Assembly (NCBI RefSeq): GCF_019669965.1
Contig: NZ_AP019781.1
Location: forward strand, 620,001 to 684,000
Length of the DNA stretch: 64,000 nucleotides
Origin: Methanoculleus chikugoensis
GTDB taxonomy: Archaea > Halobacteriota > Methanomicrobia > Methanomicrobiales > Methanoculleaceae
Direction of reading: 5' to 3'
A program made the position numbers and the translations under genes. Numbering within the stretch: the stretch's first letter is position 1; each line of letters opens with the position of its first letter. Below the pieces are notes generated by a model that made no database searches, was not told where the DNA came from, and was given only the letters and a program-made list of their open reading frames with translations. Positions 18,311-44,600 of this stretch are shown here, in pieces.

Positions 18311-19642
18311 ATGCGCCATATTCCAGTGATTGTCGTTGCGGGAACCCACAGCGGCTGCGGCAAGACCACGCTTGCAAGCGGCCTGATGGCGGCGCTCGCC
18401 GCCCGGGGACTTGCCGTTCAGCCCTTCAAGGTGGGCCCGGATTTCATCGACCCCACGCACCATTCGGCTATCTGCGGCCGGACGTCCCGCAACCTCGACC
18501 CGTTCATGATGGGGGAGGCGGGGGTGCGGGAGACGTTCGTCCGTGCCTCTGCCGGGGCCGATATCGCCGTCGTCGAGGGTGCGATGGGGCTCTTCGACGG
18601 GCTCGAAGGAACCGATACCGCGAGCACGGCGCATGTCGCAAAGATTCTCGACGCCCCGGTTCTTCTCGTGGTTGACGCGGGGGGCGCGTCGCGGAGCGTC
18701 CATGCCATGATCCGGGGCTACGCGGGGTTTGATTCGGCCGTCCGGGTCGCCGGAGCCATCTTCAACCGGATCGGGAGCCCCCGCCACCTTGCCATGATCG
18801 AGGAGACGAAGAGCCTCCCGATCTACGGGGGGATCCCGCGGCGAACGGATCTTGTGGTCGAAAGCCGGCACCTCGGACTCGCGATGGCGGCCGAGACGGG
18901 GATGATGGCGCGGTTCGGCGCGGTGGTCGAGGAGACGTGCGATCTCCCCGGGCTCATCGACCTCGCCCGGTCGGCCCCGCCCCTCCCGGCACCGGCGGAG
19001 GCCCCCGCCCGGCCGGAATCCGGGGTGCGCATCGGCGTCGCGAACGATGCGGCGTTCTGTTTTTACTACGTGGACAACATCGACCGGCTCGTGCGGGCCG
19101 GGGCGGAACTGATCTTCTTCTCGCCGATGACCGACCGGCTCCCGGACGTGGACGCTCTCTACCTCGGGGGCGGCTACCCGGAGCTCCACGCGGAGGCGCT
19201 CTCCTCATCCCGGTGCCGGGAAGATCTCCGCCGGGCGGCCGATGACGGGATGCCCGTCTATGCCGAGTGCGGCGGGCTCATCTACCTCACCGAACGCCTT
19301 GCGACCGACGAGGGGGATTACCCGATGGCCGGCGTCCTCCCGGCGGCGGCGGAGATGACGGGCCGCATCCAGGCCCTCGGGTACGTCGAGGCCCGGGTTG
19401 TCGGGACAGCACCGATCCTTGCCCCGGGCTCGGCCTTCCGGGGCCACGAGTACCACTATTCCCGGCTTGACTGTGCCCGTGACGCCCGGTTCGCCCTGGA
19501 ACTCCTCCGCGGGCGGGGTATCGACGGGGGCCGGGACGGGCTTACCGCGCAGAACGCGGTCGGACAGTACACCCACGCCTACTTCCCGGAGGGGTTCGCC
19601 GAACGACTGGTCGAGGCGGCCGGAGCATACCGGCGGACGTAA
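18311..19642 (+). CDS. cbiA: Cobyrinate (or Ni-sirohydrochlorin) a,c-diamide synthase, CbiA/CfbB
   Basis: ATP- and glutamine-dependent amidation of two carboxylates on a tetrapyrrole. The protein has 443 residues. The N-terminal half is a dethiobiotin-synthetase-like ATPase with AGTHSGCGKTTLASG and KVGPDFIDPTHHS; VVEGAMGLFDG is the acidic loop. The C-terminal half is a class I glutamine amidotransferase with LYLGGGYPELHA and the nucleophile in VYAECGGLIYL, and the His in FRGHEYHYS and YTHAYF. In methanogens this family serves either cobalamin (CbiA) or coenzyme F430 (CfbB). Position opposite cbiMNQO favours CbiA but does not decide. GAGG precedes the ATG by six bases. Confidence 0.9.
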   Translation: MRHIPVIVVAGTHSGCGKTTLASGLMAALAARGLAVQPFKVGPDFIDPTHHSAICGRTSRNLDPFMMGEAGVRETFVRASAGADIAVVEGAMGLFDGLEGTDTASTAHVAKILDAPVLLVVDAGGASRSVHAMIRGYAGFDSAVRVAGAIFNRIGSPRHLAMIEETKSLPIYGGIPRRTDLVVESRHLGLAMAAETGMMARFGAVVEETCDLPGLIDLARSAPPLPAPAEAPARPESGVRIGVANDAAFCFYYVDNIDRLVRAGAELIFFSPMTDRLPDVDALYLGGGYPELHAEALSSSRCREDLRRAADDGMPVYAECGGLIYLTERLATDEGDYPMAGVLPAAAEMTGRIQALGYVEARVVGTAPILAPGSAFRGHEYHYSRLDCARDARFALELLRGRGIDGGRDGLTAQNAVGQYTHAYFPEGFAERLVEAAGAYRRT

Positions 19643-19682: not shown

Positions 19683-20303
19683 TCAGGCGGTGACGATGAT
19701 CGTCCCGTTGATCCCGGTTGTCTGTGACTGGTAGGTGTAGTTGCCTGCGGCGTTGAAGGTGTAAGTATAGGAGTCGCCCGGCGCAAGCATGCCGGAGTCG
19801 AAGAACCCCGTTGCCCCGGTCGCCGATACGGTCTGGTTCGTGGAAGCGTCGTTGGTCCAGCCCACCGTAGTTCCGGTCGGAACGGTGAGCGTGTCCGGGA
19901 CGTACCCGCTCTCGGTGATGGAGACGGTCTCGTCAGCGACGACGGCCGCCGCCGCCGGGGTTCCCGGCGGGGTCTCCGTTGCGTTCGCGGCAACGGTCGT
20001 TGCTGCCGCCCCGGTCTCCATCGGTGTCTCCGTTCCTGTTATCATCGTGGTTGCGGTTGCCGCCGGCGTTCCTGTCTCCATTGGTGTCTCCGTTCCTGTT
20101 ATCATCGTGGTTGCGGTTGCCGCCGGCGTTCCCGTCTCCATCGGTGTCTCTGTTATTGCTGGCGTTCCTGTCTCCATCGGGGTCTCGGTGAGTCCCGGTG
20201 TCGTGCCGGGTGTCACCGTCTTGTTGCCCGATGGCTGCACACACCCTGCGATCATGATGCTCGCGATCACCATGAGAGCAAGGATACCAAACATCCTCTT
20301 CAT
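19683..20303 (-). CDS. Lipoprotein with degenerate cupredoxin domain
   Basis: The protein has 206 residues. MKRMFGILALMVIASIMIAGC is a lipoprotein signal peptide with lipobox IAGC (Cys near 21). A Thr/Pro-rich tether (residues 25-115) contains tandem TETPMETGTPA-type repeats. The last 85 residues form a plastocyanin-like fold: ESGYVPDTLTVPTGTTVGWTN, then FFDSGMLAPGDSYTYTF and GNYTYQSQTTGINGTIIV. In copper proteins of this type the sites are PHTV and YHCxxHPxM; here they read TNQTV and YQSQTTGI, so all four ligands are missing. It probably serves as a structural surface domain. A TATA-like GTTTATTTACG about 30 bases upstream suggests a leaderless message. Confidence 0.82.
   Translation of the reverse strand: MKRMFGILALMVIASIMIAGCVQPSGNKTVTPGTTPGLTETPMETGTPAITETPMETGTPAATATTMITGTETPMETGTPAATATTMITGTETPMETGAAATTVAANATETPPGTPAAAAVVADETVSITESGYVPDTLTVPTGTTVGWTNDASTNQTVSATGATGFFDSGMLAPGDSYTYTFNAAGNYTYQSQTTGINGTIIVTA
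20013..20180 (-). repeat. 60-base tandem repeat inside lipoprotein gene
   Basis: Two full units of exactly 60 bases (20013-20072 and 20073-20132), differing at only a few positions, plus a partial third unit. They encode a 20-residue unit containing TETPMETGTPA and TATTMITG. The unit keeps the frame, so copy number can change without breaking the protein. Confidence 0.85.
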
Positions 20304-20665
20304 GTGGTGGACGATGCTTCTTGGCGTAAATAAACTTTACCCCTCGCATGAAAACTGAAATCCGTGGTTTAAATCCGTCGCAGCAGCACCATGTCCGGCC
20401 GCCGGGGTATTGGGATTTCCTCATGGGCTCGTTAGCCTGTTGTGTTCATCAAACACCCCATTGGGCTGAATCAGTGGCACTGTGCCCCTGTTTCGGTGCG
20501 CCGCCGGGACGCCCGATCCCGTCCGGCCGGCACCGGAGCGGGGTGGAGTTCCCGCCTCCGAACTCCTCTGAGGTTCGGAGAGAGGGGGGCCGCACCGCGG
20601 GGCGTTCATTCTTCCCTTCCGCCCGGCTATAAGGTATTTATAGCCGGGTACGGATAGGGGGTTCT
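20304..20665. other. Divergent intergenic region
   Basis: No gene is seen. It holds the putative promoter of the lipoprotein gene (AT-rich, 20331-20340, minus strand) and, at the other end, AAGGTATTTATAG (about 20631-20643), a TATA box for the aldo-keto reductase, 25-35 bases before its ATG. The middle has no feature I can name. Confidence 0.55.
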
Positions 20666-33498: not shown

Positions 33499-33749
33499 CT
33501 CGCGTATCTATGGACTCCGGTGATCCGGGAATGAAGCGTGATCCTGACGCATTTGGGGCCTTTTCCAGTATTGCGGTGCCTTTCGGGGGCGTCGGACACC
33601 CGGTCGACCACAAAGGATATATTAAGTGTTCCACAAATATTGTGACATATTCCGTGAATCGGAGTATAGAGCGTGGTGAACCCGTATTCGACGTCTGTCG
33701 AGTACCTCGCGTTCACATTCCCTCATGTCATCACAAATGGAGGTATAGT
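33499..33749. other. Upstream region and long leader of the S-layer gene
   Basis: No gene is seen. GATATATTA (33616-33624) is the likely TATA box of the S-layer gene, which puts the transcript start near 33645 and the leader at about 105 bases. GGAGGT (33739-33744) is a consensus ribosome-binding site. Most other genes in this window have very short leaders. Confidence 0.6.
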
Positions 33750-36107
33750 ATGAAGAGTATGACAAAATTGATGGTGGTCGCCATGATCCTCGCGGCTGCG
33801 CTGGTCGTTGCACCGGCTGCTGCGCGGGCGCCTAGTGCCGGTACCGCCATCTATGTTGGCGAAGAGGACCTCGACGTCAATGCGCTTAATGGCACTGCGT
33901 CGGCGGACTTTACACGGCTCGTTCACTACAGTGGCGCAGTGGGCGAGGCGATCGACGATGAGATCCAGGTGACGGGCAGCGGCCTCATCACCGAGGTGAA
34001 GAAGGGCATAAAGACCGGGAACTACTACGTAGAGGGAAACAAATCTGCGTACCTCAACGTCCGGGTGCCCGAAGTAACGGTCGATGTTGTGCTGAACAAA
34101 TCTCCGAAGGAATCCGTGGTTGGCAAGTCCGTCACCCGGGATACTGAGGTGGCCTTCAAGCTTTCAAACAACCTGATCTCCGGGATGAACAAAACCGGAA
34201 CAGGGGACGTTAAGATGAACATCGAGGTCACCCTGCCCGGTGGCGGTGTTGTGACCCGGTTCGGTAGCGGTGTTACAACAGACAATCTGAAGGGCATTGT
34301 TGCGAACGGTACAACCCAGTACGAGCCCGTCAAACTGACGGATGCCGCAGCAGGCACCTACACCGTTCAGGCGAAATGGCCTGATACGTCTGACTTCTAC
34401 GGCAAGGGCTTTGACTCCAACACCGGAGCTTTCGAGGTCCTCAGCAAGTCGCTTGCCATCACGTCCGACAAGGACAGCGTCGTTCGCGGCAACAGTTTCA
34501 CCGTGACGATCACCGGTGAGTCCATCACGCCGTATGATCTGTACGTCAAGGACGTGAGTAATCTTGCGCCTAACAAGTATCCCAGTATCCGGGCCGGCCA
34601 GAAGGGATTTAATCCCCTGTTCCCCGGTGCAAGCGCTGCCGCTAATGCCAGCACGATCAATGCAACCTTTAACACTACCGCCAGCGGAACGAGGACTGTC
34701 CAGTTCGACACCGGCTCAAACACCGAAGACCGGACGTACACCATCCGCGTTGAGGCGCATGGTTCCCAGAGCAGCACCACCTACGACGAGGTCAAGGTAA
34801 AGGTCGAGAAGGGAAGCGTCACCATCACGGCGTCCGGCACCGGTACCTACTACATCGGTGAGGAAGTCACCCTCTCCGGTACCTGCACCGACAACGACAC
34901 AAAGGTTCACCTCTTCATGACCGGTCCGAACCTCAAATCCTCGGACGGCGTCAACCTCTTGAGCCTGCTCCCTGTATCGACCGTTGTTATTCCTGGTGAA
35001 ACCGATGCGTTCAACACAGCGGATGTTAAGGCCGACGACACCTGGTCGCTCAAGTGGAACACCGGCGATATTGCACTAAAAGGAGGCGCACTTGATGCCG
35101 GCGGCTACACGATCTACGCCGTCTCGCAGCCTGTGGACAAGAGCCGTCTTTCCACTGCCCAGTACGCCACGGCCTCCGTCCAGCTCCGGTCCGGTTTCAT
35201 CACCGCGGCCTCGAGCGGTGCAGTCGTCGCGAAAGGTGACGACCTGACGCTCACCGGAATGGCACAGGGCGACCCCGGCACTGTCAAGGTCTGGATCTTC
35301 GGCAAGAACAAGCAGATGACTGACAAGAGCGCAACTGTTGAGGATGACGGCAGCTTCGAGTTTGAACTCAAGAGCGGCGATACCAGCGGGCTCGCCGCAG
35401 GCCAGTACTTTGTGGTCATCCAGCATCCGATGATGAACAAGGAATTCGACGTTGATGCCGGGACTGGTCTCGATGCTGGCTGGATCGTCGGAACAAATGA
35501 GTCTGGGTTTAACAAAGTAAAGATCTCCGGGCTCCAGGCCTCCGATGCAGCGACCGCGCTGATCAACGCCCTCGACTCCCCGAACATCGACGACACCTAC
35601 GTGAAGCTCACCTTCGTCGTCGAAGAGCCGAACATCTGGATCGACGCGATCGGCGACAAGGCTGCAGGCAGCAAGTTCACGATCACCGGCACGACCAACC
35701 TCGCTGTCGGCGACACGCTGAACATTGAGGTCACCTCCGCTGCGTTCCAGCCGACCAGCAAGAGCGAGGCCTCCGGCTTCGGCTCGGTTGCTGGCACTAC
35801 GGAAGTCAAGCAGGGCGACGGCGCGAACACCTGGTCGTTCGAGGTTGACGGTGCGAGCTTCAAGCCCGACCAGTACATCGTCAAGGTTGAGTCCATTGAG
35901 ACCAGCACGACCTCTACCGCGACCTTCAACGTAGTCGAGGCAGTCCCGACGACTCAGGCTACCCCGACCACGACCGCGACCGGCGAGGTCACCCCGACCG
36001 CTACCGCGACCACTGAGGCTACCCCCACCCAGTCCCCCGGATTCGGAGCACTTCTTGCTCTTGCCGGCCTTGGTGCGGTTGCCTTCCTGGTCCTGCGGCG
36101 GGACTAA
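33750..36107 (+). CDS. S-layer protein, DUF3821 family, PGF-CTERM anchored
   Basis: The probable main surface-layer protein, 785 residues. MKSMTKLMVVAMILAAALVV is a signal peptide, cleaved near AARA. The N-terminal region (AGTAIYVGEEDLDVN, EIQVTGSG) is typical of DUF3821. Repeated Ig-like beta domains follow, with KGSVTITASGTGTYYIGEEV and DKAAGSKFTITGTT. The tail (residues 735-785) is Thr/Pro-rich (TTTATGEVTPTATATTE), then SPGFGALLALAGLGAVAFLV and RRD: a PGF-CTERM signal, which archaeosortase A cleaves and replaces by a lipid. Many NxS/T sites suggest glycosylation. GGAGGT five bases before the ATG and biased codons suggest high expression. Confidence 0.92.
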   Translation: MKSMTKLMVVAMILAAALVVAPAAARAPSAGTAIYVGEEDLDVNALNGTASADFTRLVHYSGAVGEAIDDEIQVTGSGLITEVKKGIKTGNYYVEGNKSAYLNVRVPEVTVDVVLNKSPKESVVGKSVTRDTEVAFKLSNNLISGMNKTGTGDVKMNIEVTLPGGGVVTRFGSGVTTDNLKGIVANGTTQYEPVKLTDAAAGTYTVQAKWPDTSDFYGKGFDSNTGAFEVLSKSLAITSDKDSVVRGNSFTVTITGESITPYDLYVKDVSNLAPNKYPSIRAGQKGFNPLFPGASAAANASTINATFNTTASGTRTVQFDTGSNTEDRTYTIRVEAHGSQSSTTYDEVKVKVEKGSVTITASGTGTYYIGEEVTLSGTCTDNDTKVHLFMTGPNLKSSDGVNLLSLLPVSTVVIPGETDAFNTADVKADDTWSLKWNTGDIALKGGALDAGGYTIYAVSQPVDKSRLSTAQYATASVQLRSGFITAASSGAVVAKGDDLTLTGMAQGDPGTVKVWIFGKNKQMTDKSATVEDDGSFEFELKSGDTSGLAAGQYFVVIQHPMMNKEFDVDAGTGLDAGWIVGTNESGFNKVKISGLQASDAATALINALDSPNIDDTYVKLTFVVEEPNIWIDAIGDKAAGSKFTITGTTNLAVGDTLNIEVTSAAFQPTSKSEASGFGSVAGTTEVKQGDGANTWSFEVDGASFKPDQYIVKVESIETSTTSTATFNVVEAVPTTQATPTTTATGEVTPTATATTEATPTQSPGFGALLALAGLGAVAFLVLRRD

Positions 36108-36517: not shown

Positions 36518-37183
36518 ATGAAGCGATTTGTAGCCACTGCGCGAGGACGTGTCCAGCGGGTTGGCTATCGGGATCATATATATAACGAGACGTTTGAGCG
36601 GGATATCTCCGGGTACGTAAAGAACCTCGAAACTGGTGAGGTCGAGATCGTTGCAGAGGGGGGCGAGCAGGAACTCTTGGATTTTATAAGCAAAATCAAT
36701 ATCGTACGAAGGCCCATTGCCGTCAAATCGTTCACCGTTCAGTGGGGGGAGGCAACAGGGGAGTATGCCGACTTCGAGATCATCCGGGGAGATCTCCAGG
36801 AAGAGACATTCGAACGGATGGATTACGCCGGAAAGGTGTTGCACAGCATGGACATGAAGCTGGATCAGAGCCTCCAGTTACAGCATGCAATGCTCGGCAA
36901 GCAGGATCAGAGCCTCAAGTTACAGCATACAATGCTCGACAAGCAGGATCAGATGCTGGAGAAGCAGGACCGGATGCTTGACAAACAGGATCAGAGCCTC
37001 CAGTTACAGCACATGATGCTGGAGAAGCAGGATCAGAGTCTTCAGATTGGGATTGAGACAAAAGAAGAGATTACCGGACTCCGAAAAGACACCGGGAAGT
37101 ACCTTGACGACGAATTCAAGGAGATCAAAAAGGAGCTTGCCTCTATCAAGGGTGCCCTTGCCCGGGCTGGTATCCAGGTCTAG
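36518..37183 (+). CDS. Acylphosphatase domain fused to a glutamine-rich coiled-coil repeat
   Basis: The protein has 221 residues. Residues 1-92 are an acylphosphatase: GRVQRVGYR with the phosphate-binding loop and Arg18, and GYVKNLETGEVEI with Asn36, so both catalytic residues are kept; the enzyme cleaves carboxyl-phosphate bonds. Residues 100-180 are tandem seven-residue repeats of MLDKQDQ and SLQLQHM type, a long coiled coil, then EEITGLRKDTGKYLDDEF and a terminal helix. Acylphosphatases are normally about 90 residues, so the tail is an addition, probably for oligomerisation or partner binding. The ATG closely follows a TATA box, so the message is nearly leaderless. Function of the fusion unknown. 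Confidence 0.85.
   Translation: MKRFVATARGRVQRVGYRDHIYNETFERDISGYVKNLETGEVEIVAEGGEQELLDFISKINIVRRPIAVKSFTVQWGEATGEYADFEIIRGDLQEETFERMDYAGKVLHSMDMKLDQSLQLQHAMLGKQDQSLKLQHTMLDKQDQMLEKQDRMLDKQDQSLQLQHMMLEKQDQSLQIGIETKEEITGLRKDTGKYLDDEFKEIKKELASIKGALARAGIQV
36865..37055 (+). repeat. Tandem repeats encoding the coiled coil
   Basis: Short DNA units such as AAGCAGGATCAGAGCCTCCA recur several times (near 36900, 36985 and 37025). They encode KQDQSLQLQH and MLDKQDQ units. The close identity points to recent repeat expansion. Confidence 0.75.
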
Positions 37184-41683: not shown

Positions 41684-44600
41684 ATGAACGGATGGACGTA
41701 TGCATGCCTGGTGGTAGGGCTGCTTCTGCTGGCGGCCCCGGCCGGGGCGGCGCGGATACCTGATGATATTGAGATGCTTGATACAGGGCAAGAGTGGGTG
41801 ACGGCGGGGAGCGGGGAGACCTCGACCATCACGGCACTGGTCAAAAACGGCAGCAGCCCGCTTCCCGGGGTCACCGTTCTTTTCTCGATGGATAACCTTG
41901 ATGGGACCATCTCGCCCGCGCAGGCGGTGACGGGCATTGATGGAAAGGCGACGGCGATCTTCAAACCGGGAACCCGGAGCGGGGACACGGTCATCATAGC
42001 GACGGTATCGCATGAGGAACTGGACCTGCCTCTGGTGAATAACGTCGTGCAGAAGGTAGACCACGCGACGGCGCACCGGATCGTTAATCTCTGGTATGAT
42101 TCTGAGGTGACCGCCGGGGGGACGACGGATATTGTCATTCGGATGGCTGATCGGTATGGAAATCCGGTGGATAACCGGAGCGTGGCTGAGTCGGTGTCTT
42201 TCCTGGTGGGTCAGATCGTAGGCGGTTCCGGTGCGACATTCGCCAACGGTGAGGACGAGATCACAGTGCCGGTGGATGGTGCCGGGAACGTCACCACAAG
42301 ACTCCATGTTGATACAAAGGCCGGGCAGAACATTGTTTCTGTATCGTTTCCCGGAAATATCGCATCACGTTCCCTGATTATCACCGGGTGTGTGAGCGGT
42401 GAACCGGCGAAGATTTTCCAGACCGTTTCTCCCCGGGCGGAAGGATCAGATTATCCTGAGGTGCCGCTGCCCGGGTCGTTCACCCTGACCTATGCTCTCT
42501 ATGATGAGTATGGCAACCCCGCCGGGGATCGGGATCTAAGAGTAGATTTTACACGGATCTCCGGTGCCCTGATCGATGATGTGTCGTTCACCAAAACAAA
42601 CAGTGTGGGTAAGGCGCAGATTACATATAGTTCGTCAACCCGAGCCGGTGTCGCAGAGATTGTTGCGACCGCTGTCGATAACAACAGCGTCTTATGTAAA
42701 CAGAAGGTAGGCTTCTACAGTTCCGTTTCGAGTGATATGGTCGTTGCTGCCGCACCGGAGACCATCGCGAGCAGGGATGTAAAGGACGATATCGTCTCTT
42801 CGATCAGAGCGAAAGTGATGGACTCGAAGGGCAACCCCGTTGAAGGCGAGAGCGTCTTGTTCAGGCTCATCAAGGTCGATGCCGAAGGGTATAAGATGAC
42901 CGAAGAGCCTGTGATATCGAACGGCACTCCCCCCCCCTCCGGAAAAGACGGTCCGCCTGTTGTTGCCGTGACCGATAAGGATGGGTTTGCCACGATTGAT
43001 TTCCAGCCCGGAGCTTTCACCCGGAATGCGTCTGATCCCCTGTACAGCGATATGGCCTCGGGGAGTGCAACAATCCAGGCCGTCTGGAAAGATAAACAGG
43101 GAGATACTACCGTCTCATTCCGGAACTACCCTTATCTCAGCGTCAATGTCTCGGTCGAACCGCAGGTGGTTAATGTGACTGAAAACGTCAGCGTTACAAT
43201 CCGGTTGATCGGCGACGGCTGGGCGCTCCAGAAGAAGCCGATCGATGTGGTGCTCTGCACAGATCGATCGGGGAGTATGCTACAGAATACGACGTATGAC
43301 GGGGAGAGTACTAGTTATCCAAATTGGGTCGAGCAGGAGTCGATCGATGACCGGATGGTTCACGCAATGCGGGCAGCGAAGAACTTTACAGCTCAGATGC
43401 AGTCCTCGAAGGACAGAATAGGACTGGTATCGTTTGGTCAGAATGGAGATGCAAATCTTGACAAATATAGTTATAAATATTGGGCGGGAAACGACTATAA
43501 GGAAGTATGGCACGATGGCTATTGGGGGTGGGGGTGGCACGATGGCTATTGGGGGTGGGGGTGGCACGATGGCTATTGGGGGTGGGAGAGTGATTCCAGC
43601 GACGACGATGCTTATATCGCCGAGCATTACAAGAACCCACAAACTTACTCTGGCCCTGCCACCCGTGACCTTAACTTGACCTCAAACTATGGGAGTGTCA
43701 ACGCCACAATTGACAAGTGGCTCCCCTGCGGTGGAACGCCGATGCGCGAGGGACTGTACCAGTCCGTGCGGATGATCAAGGAGAACCCAAGAACGGGAGA
43801 CCCTGTGAAAGCGATTGTCCTCCTGACCGACGGGGAATATAGCACGAATCAAAACCCAGAGGGTGGCGGAAACAATGCATACCTTGGCGACGGAGTCGAG
43901 AGGGGCAGTGTCATCGAGTATGCAAAAAGAAATAACATCAAGATCTTTACAATCGCCCTCGGCAACGAACCGAGTCATAGCGAACTCCAGAATTACTCCA
44001 AGCAGACCGGCGGCACGTTCTACAGCGCCACCGCAGGCGACGACCTGACGCAGGTCTATGCGGCTATCGCTACGAAACTCCAGGAGGCGGCCGGCGTCAA
44101 CACCACGATGAATCTGGCGTTCGATAAGGTCGAGATCAATTCCGCGCCTGTTGAGGATGTCTTTGAGTATGTATCGTCTGAACCGTCGTCGACCAAGATG
44201 ATCAAGTACTGGACCGCAAACGAAACAACAATCCAGGGACCGGAATGGAAAAATCAGAGCGAAGACTGGGTGACGGGTGGCCAGAGCCTCTCCTTTAAGG
44301 TTGGCGATATCTATCGTGATCAGACCTGGGAGACGACGTTCAAGTTGAAGGTCCTGAAAGAGGGGAACATCGATATCTTCGGCAACGGTTCCATCATCAA
44401 GTTCAACGGCACCGCGGGCCCGACGGAACTGCGCCTGCCTCACACCTTCATCACCGCCAGCCAGAACCTCAGTGAGACTGATATTTTTGCAGCAGATATT
44501 CTGTTAACGCGTGGTCCTCTTGATGTTGATGAGGATAACCCCGGCACTCTCGTGCCCACCTGGGAGTTAATTTATACCGGGAACAGATCGGTAACACAGA

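Follow-up and report, generated by a model that had tools for sequence, protein, structure and literature searches.

Type-1 blue copper proteins bind their metal through two histidines, one cysteine and usually a methionine. The domain described here has its closest solved folds and its closest PDB sequences in the purple cupredoxin of Nitrosopumilus (5fc9) and the C-terminal domain of 9cck, which are copper proteins with ligands, whereas the methanogen domain has none. It likewise shares the fold of plastocyanin and amicyanin and has none of their four ligands, bar a possible methionine in one of 34 aligned rows.

The early nodulin-like (ENODL) proteins of plants are lipid (GPI) anchored. In the parts of PMC4499708 that treat them, they combine a cupredoxin domain unable to bind copper with a glycoprotein-like region, and are defined by a phytocyanin domain with two conserved disulphide cysteines. 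On that partial account the methanogen protein is like the ENODLs of the phytocyanin family in design, as a ligandless cupredoxin with a glycoprotein-like region, and is not a member of the group: it is archaeal, its anchor and stalk are N-terminal, and its domain lacks cysteine, so that there is no phytocyanin disulphide. The likeness is presumably convergent. Cuproproteins are thought to be rare in strict anaerobes, Methanosarcinales being listed as non-users in the relevant section of PMC2147054, and an excerpt of PMC6315138 carries the proposal that cupredoxins in surface proteins serve electron uptake in Methanosarcina barkeri. The open-licence literature on methanogen and archaeal cupredoxins yielded no paper on the present protein, which is weak evidence, and a search there for ligandless cupredoxin folds found nothing; PMC4982221 uses the word cupredoxin only for a multicopper oxidase entry.

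Architecture of the gene and its protein

The gene lies on the minus strand of the window, by which we mean the whole 64,000-nucleotide stretch of DNA that was analysed, and reads from 20303 to 19683; the plus-strand reading of the same interval contains a stop. The open reading frame matches its own genome, an archaeal single contig of 2.62 Mb, at 100%. The features are as follows.

19683–20303, minus strand: coding sequence of the ligandless, stalked, predicted cupredoxin lipoprotein, 206 residues (open reading frame; relatives of the same type in 32 of 35 Methanoculleus genomes)
20241–20303, minus strand: predicted lipoprotein signal, residues 1–21, its last residues the putative lipobox IAGC (from sequence; nearly invariant within the genus)
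19971–20240, minus strand: stalk rich in Thr, Pro, Glu, Met and Ala, residues 22–111 (90 residues), 46% Thr plus Pro (from composition)
20014–20154, minus strand: 60-bp tandem repeat inside the stalk, 2.3 copies (repeat search)
19686–19970, minus strand: predicted cupredoxin-fold domain, residues 112–206 (95 residues; AF2 models and fold matches)
19830–19838, minus strand: sequon N156-Q157-T158, with Q157 (19833–19835) at the position of the first copper histidine (27 of 34 rows)
19734–19742, minus strand: sequon N188-Y189-T190, on the strand leading to the former cysteine (27 of 34 rows)
19725–19727, minus strand: Ser193, at the copper cysteine position (serine in 33 and alanine in one of 34 rows)
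20304–20341, minus strand: conserved promoter block with the TATA-like TTTATTTA at 20327–20334 (29 upstream regions compared)
18311–19642, plus strand: cfbB/cbiA-type amidotransferase, a convergent neighbour given for context and outside the proposed mechanism (Pfam CbiA and GATase_3)

IAGC is taken as a lipobox by the usual lipobox rule. A signal with a lipobox cysteine, the mark of an archaeal lipoprotein, is present by motif in the rows with an available N-terminus, so that lipidation is predicted, and together with the stalk composition this agrees with an earlier note on this DNA that had described a lipoprotein on a Thr/Pro stalk. The same note held that the stalk was built of exact 60-base repeats. 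The repeat is real and only near-exact: the full copies at 20020–20079 and 20080–20139 are identical in 58 of 60 bases and encode identical protein. This unit is particular to the species, and the stalks of relatives, which range from 42 to 103 residues with a middle value of 84 (31 rows), show other repeat patterns. In one relative (L033, G016:C100) the ligandless domain lies inside a 590-residue open frame, a longer protein without Pfam matches. Elsewhere in the window, an acylphosphatase domain at 36518–37183 (plus strand) is followed by a coiled-coil-like stretch of 42-base repeats, and a 27-base tandem repeat occupies 43508–43586 (2.9 copies, 100% matches).

Predicted cupredoxin fold and vacated copper site

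Sequence comparison indicates a homology to cupredoxins that is modest yet consistent. The Pfam model Cupredoxin_1 (PF13473) matched with an E-value of 3.6e-5 at 24.2 bits, and scores of 24.2 and 26.0 bits both lie below its 27-bit gathering cut-off; matches at E ≤ 0.01 were found in 26 of the 34 rows, and Copper-bind gave 0.019 for the window protein. Searching the PDB with phmmer returned 9cck (5.6e-9) and 5fc9 (2e-6), for which a profile search gave 2.7e-17 and 1.6e-11. The earlier note had proposed structure prediction as a check on the cupredoxin fold. The AF2 model reached a pLDDT of 91.1 with a 79-row alignment, of which 57 rows lie outside the ligandless clade and mostly bear ligands; when 22 ligandless rows were the only ones aligned, the value was 84.8. 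Both models rank cupredoxins first (5fc9 at TM 0.81 and 0.79, and also 9cck), and with VIA-align the first, 79-row model superposed on 5fc9 with Z 14.6 and on 9cck with Z 14.1; plastocyanin and amicyanin gave Z of about 13–14. The models thus point to a plastocyanin-type β-sandwich within the cupredoxin fold superfamily, as the note had supposed, and do so even with ligandless rows alone.

The note had also proposed a search for ligandless relatives, and this gave an alignment of 34 rows from 33 genomes (G016 contributes two), 46–91% identical to the domain of the window. The first copper histidine is replaced by glutamine in 31 rows and by glutamate in three, and the cysteine by serine in 33 and by alanine in one; the loop after the former cysteine is one residue shorter than CxxHPxM, the second histidine is absent, and a methionine at the axial place, a possible ligand, occurs in L037 only. 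Apart from that methionine the type-1 ligands are missing in all 34 rows. The motifs TNQTV and YQSQTTGI, which the note set in place of the ligand motifs, are both present in the protein, and profile alignments set the glutamine on the copper histidine and the serine on the cysteine, so that no shifted alignment restores the ligands. A shifted alignment or orthologues that keep the ligands had been named as what would speak against a complete loss; neither was found, no row of the 34 retaining them, and a single-genome oddity is rejected because all 34 rows share the loss.

Copper-site states were tallied from 164 aligned domains, three others having been dropped for length or masked letters and L032 excluded for a frameshift. 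There were 34 of the window type, 112 with histidine and cysteine, seven His/Asp, five His/Ser, four Asp/Asp and one further Gln/Ser, counts that are not frequencies in nature because the domains came from the best 80 of 209 loci in a scan of named genomes and from 39 regions chosen from an order search. Four domains (L185, L189, L190 and L196) have aspartate at both the first-histidine and cysteine positions and keep the second histidine in the loop (D-x-I-H), and this subfamily possibly carries a non-copper metal site.

Metal might still be bound non-canonically, be it copper or another, for instance by the Met/Glu-rich stalk, making the protein a metal buffer or chaperone. Stalks with up to 12 methionines, the adjacency of cfbB and, in most loci, of cbiMNQO, and the related fold 4hcg, by its title one with zinc, all suit such a role. 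The domain (residues 112–206), however, contains neither histidine nor cysteine, and stalk methionines number only 0–1 in L027, L028, L029, L035 and L036; we consider metal binding of this kind unlikely.

Sequons, paralogues and the possible course of ligand loss

In a survey of N-X-S/T across the 34 rows, only positions 156 and 188 proved common, each present in 27 rows and lacking in seven, the next best occurring in four. At the equivalent places of His+Cys cupredoxins the counts are 2/112 (156) and 0/112 (188), and 0/17 in the other rows; if a shift along the strand is allowed, a sequon near the cysteine position is found in 29 of the 34 window-type rows as against one of 112. L034 and L037, which lack N188, carry a sequon at N190, two residues further along the same strand. 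The ligandless rows are closely related, and the contrast therefore amounts to one or a few evolutionary events; for this reason no weight is placed on a Fisher p-value for it. Asn156 adjoins the former histidine and Asn188 lies on the strand that ends at the former cysteine; the crude chance that two randomly placed positions both fall within five residues of a ligand-equivalent position is 0.08. The side chain of Asn188 would point outward by strand alternation rather than by coordinates, if Y189, Y191 and S193 point inward, an alternation that we assume from plastocyanin. The genome itself encodes two STT3-type (oligosaccharyltransferase) genes, and both sequons are probably glycosylated. 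The pattern of sequons flanking the former copper site is a new, unexpected and testable observation. Because they flank that site, glycans probably cap the end of the domain at which true cupredoxins dock with their redox partners.

Three further cupredoxin domains in the same genome (L204–L206) have H, C, H and M intact by eye and, again by eye, no sequon at the ligand loops. L205 is built like the window protein, with a signal, a GC lipobox, a Thr-rich stalk and a cupredoxin, and differs in that its ligands read as intact and that it appears by eye to belong to another subfamily. Their presence, together with loci elsewhere in the order that pair an intact with a Cys-less lipoprotein, would fit an apo-mimic that competes with the intact cupredoxins for docking partners; with sequons at the end concerned, however, such docking would be blocked, and L204–L206 look like a different subfamily by eye, which leaves this reading quite improbable.

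The paralogue detected in the same genome (L002, G000:C1, about 32.4 kb; E 1.6e-9) is a cupredoxin fused to fasciclin (FAS1) and a DUF4399-like stretch, without a lipobox. As in the window protein, a sequon falls within the copper site, here at the second histidine; unlike that protein, L002 retains the first histidine, the cysteine and a distant methionine. L002 and its 13 relatives make up 14 rows, and in 13 of these a sequon asparagine has taken the place of the second histidine, the exception being L040, which keeps CSIHPS. Other sequons occur in 10, 10 and 8 of the 14, so that the sequon at the histidine taken alone is a weaker argument. Other members of the order (L171, L164, L177 and L102/L162) have two neighbouring small cupredoxins, mostly with a lipobox, of which one is intact and the other has aspartate or serine for the cysteine.

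A further methanogen family of the same phylum, f8 (GC 42–46% in five loci), comprises stalked acidic lipoproteins in which, in six genomes, the first histidine has become valine or alanine and the cysteine serine, with N-V/A-T at the histidine loop in three of the six ligandless rows. L249, of the same genus code as these rows, keeps the histidine and has serine for cysteine, as do L254 and L258, and most other f8 rows that were read retain both ligands, which suggests an independent loss that began with the cysteine. In a quick tree of 163 rows, without f8, a branch (97) separated the Gln/Ser (QS) clade from the remaining rows, and the clade grouped with lipoproteins from other members of the order that lack the cysteine (94). 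A more careful tree of 95 rows joined the QS and f8 rows with L038 (98/97) and placed the other Cys-less order members elsewhere; there the QS clade was unbroken in only 16% of bootstraps, with long branches meeting. With few columns and long branches in both, the two trees disagree on the sister group, and the number and order of losses are suggested by the sequences at most.

A broader reading, which we hold to be possible and rather doubtful, is that the copper site has repeatedly been replaced by N-glycosylation in the surface cupredoxins of this methanogen family. Two glycans would cap the former site in the stalked lipoprotein, a sequon asparagine would take the place of the second histidine in the FAS1-fused paralogue, and the sequon at the histidine loop in three of six rows would mark another family whose site was maybe lost independently; the fold would have passed from electron port to glycan platform, with the cysteine tending to be lost first.

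Genomic setting, selection and proposed role

Window-type matches were found in 32 of 35 Methanoculleus genomes (the copy in G028, counted here, is frameshifted) and in both genomes of the sister genus g3. The nearest relative from a named genome among the matches listed is that of Methanoculleus chikugoensis, at 89% identity for the domain and 96% for cfbB. Among 392 genomes drawn evenly from the phylum, matching members of the genus scored 2.3e-37 or better and no match in other families was better than 1e-21. The three genomes without a match are G011, G021 and G031. In G021 the contig ends within cfbB, which leaves the slot unreadable; the near-complete G011 and G031 (loci L228 and L229) show a clean joint loss of the gene and the adjoining aldo/keto reductase, between cfbB and an MFS gene. 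Such loss in two species means that the gene is dispensable.

The gene occupies a single syntenic slot: cfbB adjoins it at every one of 33 loci, which come from 30 distinct genomes, with the Ni/Co transporter cbiMNQO beyond cfbB in most. An accessory of nickel/cobalt uptake or of coenzyme F430 synthesis would fit this place. Yet cfbB is convergent and hence not co-transcribed, G011 and G031 retain cbiM and cfbB without the gene, and L085 has pyk, cfbB and the gene yet no cbi matches. In G001 (g2) and G051 (f3), moreover, a PHP-like gene (named by eye) directly follows cfbB, as if the gene had been inserted there, presumably within this family. Positional inertia was judged sufficient, a functional link to cbiMNQO/cfbB was rejected, and an accessory role seems very unlikely.

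Selection on the domain is only moderately purifying, the median pairwise dN/dS being 0.44 (range 0.12–1.08; 401 of 465 pairs from 31 rows usable, with pS under 0.6). In the same number of rows the codon of the former cysteine is TCA in 15, TCG in 15 and GCA (Ala) in one, and that of the former histidine is CAG in 28 and GAG in three. Neutral decay of what was once a copper protein would account for the moderate dN/dS, the clean loss in two species, the frameshifted G028 copy and a broken-looking copy, with masked letters, in the same slot of G038 (g4). It would hardly account for the fold, the promoter, the glutamine and serine at the former ligands and the two sequons being kept down to 46% identity, and we regard decay as unlikely; genus-wide retention, the dN/dS and the mostly silent variation of the serine together argue for a maintained copper-free protein.

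Upstream, the commonest base has a mean share of 0.83 in the 45 bases before the ATG as against 0.66 in the preceding 45 (29 rows, leaving out L034 and L037 from g3 and the short L021). The centre of TTTATTTA, which we take to be a TATA-like element by the archaeal rule, lies 27 nt before the ATG in the window, a spacing that by the same rule suggests a leaderless mRNA. No second copy of the block was found in the genome at up to three mismatches, and it was rejected as a regulon motif.

We lean towards a maintained, non-redox display or contact module at the height of the S-layer, lipid-anchored and probably glycan-capped, in keeping with the earlier note's view that the fold has been reused for a non-redox surface function. 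The signal, lipobox and stalk would place the protein at the cell surface. In Methanospirillum hungatei, according to the portion of PMC11641113 that deals with the envelope, proteins of the DUF3821 plus PGF-CTERM type form the S-layer and a Pro-rich spacer of 50 residues spans 12 nm to the membrane; at this scale, taken from a partial account of another species, 84–90 stalk residues would reach about 20–22 nm. The window encodes an S-layer-type protein with DUF3821 and PGF-CTERM (33510–36107, plus strand), in which the Thr/Pro segment before the anchor motif is only about 31 residues long; its spacer is a Thr/Pro repeat, with a 30-base tandem repeat at 35947–36029. The lipid anchor and Thr/Pro stalk would thus hold the cupredoxin β-sandwich at a distance of about 20 nm from the membrane, level with the S-layer or outside it, and it may contact that layer. 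With a fixed, metal-free Gln/Ser pocket between two sequons in place of the copper site, the domain would serve the cell envelope in display, contact or spacing, as a rigid and glycosylated module rather than as an electron carrier.

The protein would provide an archaeal parallel to the plant ENODLs, and its relatives offer, within strict anaerobes, a natural series of copper-site states (both His and Cys; His, with Ser or Asp for Cys; neither of the two). Cupredoxin matches in methanogen surface proteins consequently need a check of their ligands. If the two sequons are used, the conversion of a redox fold into a module of the envelope could be tested directly.
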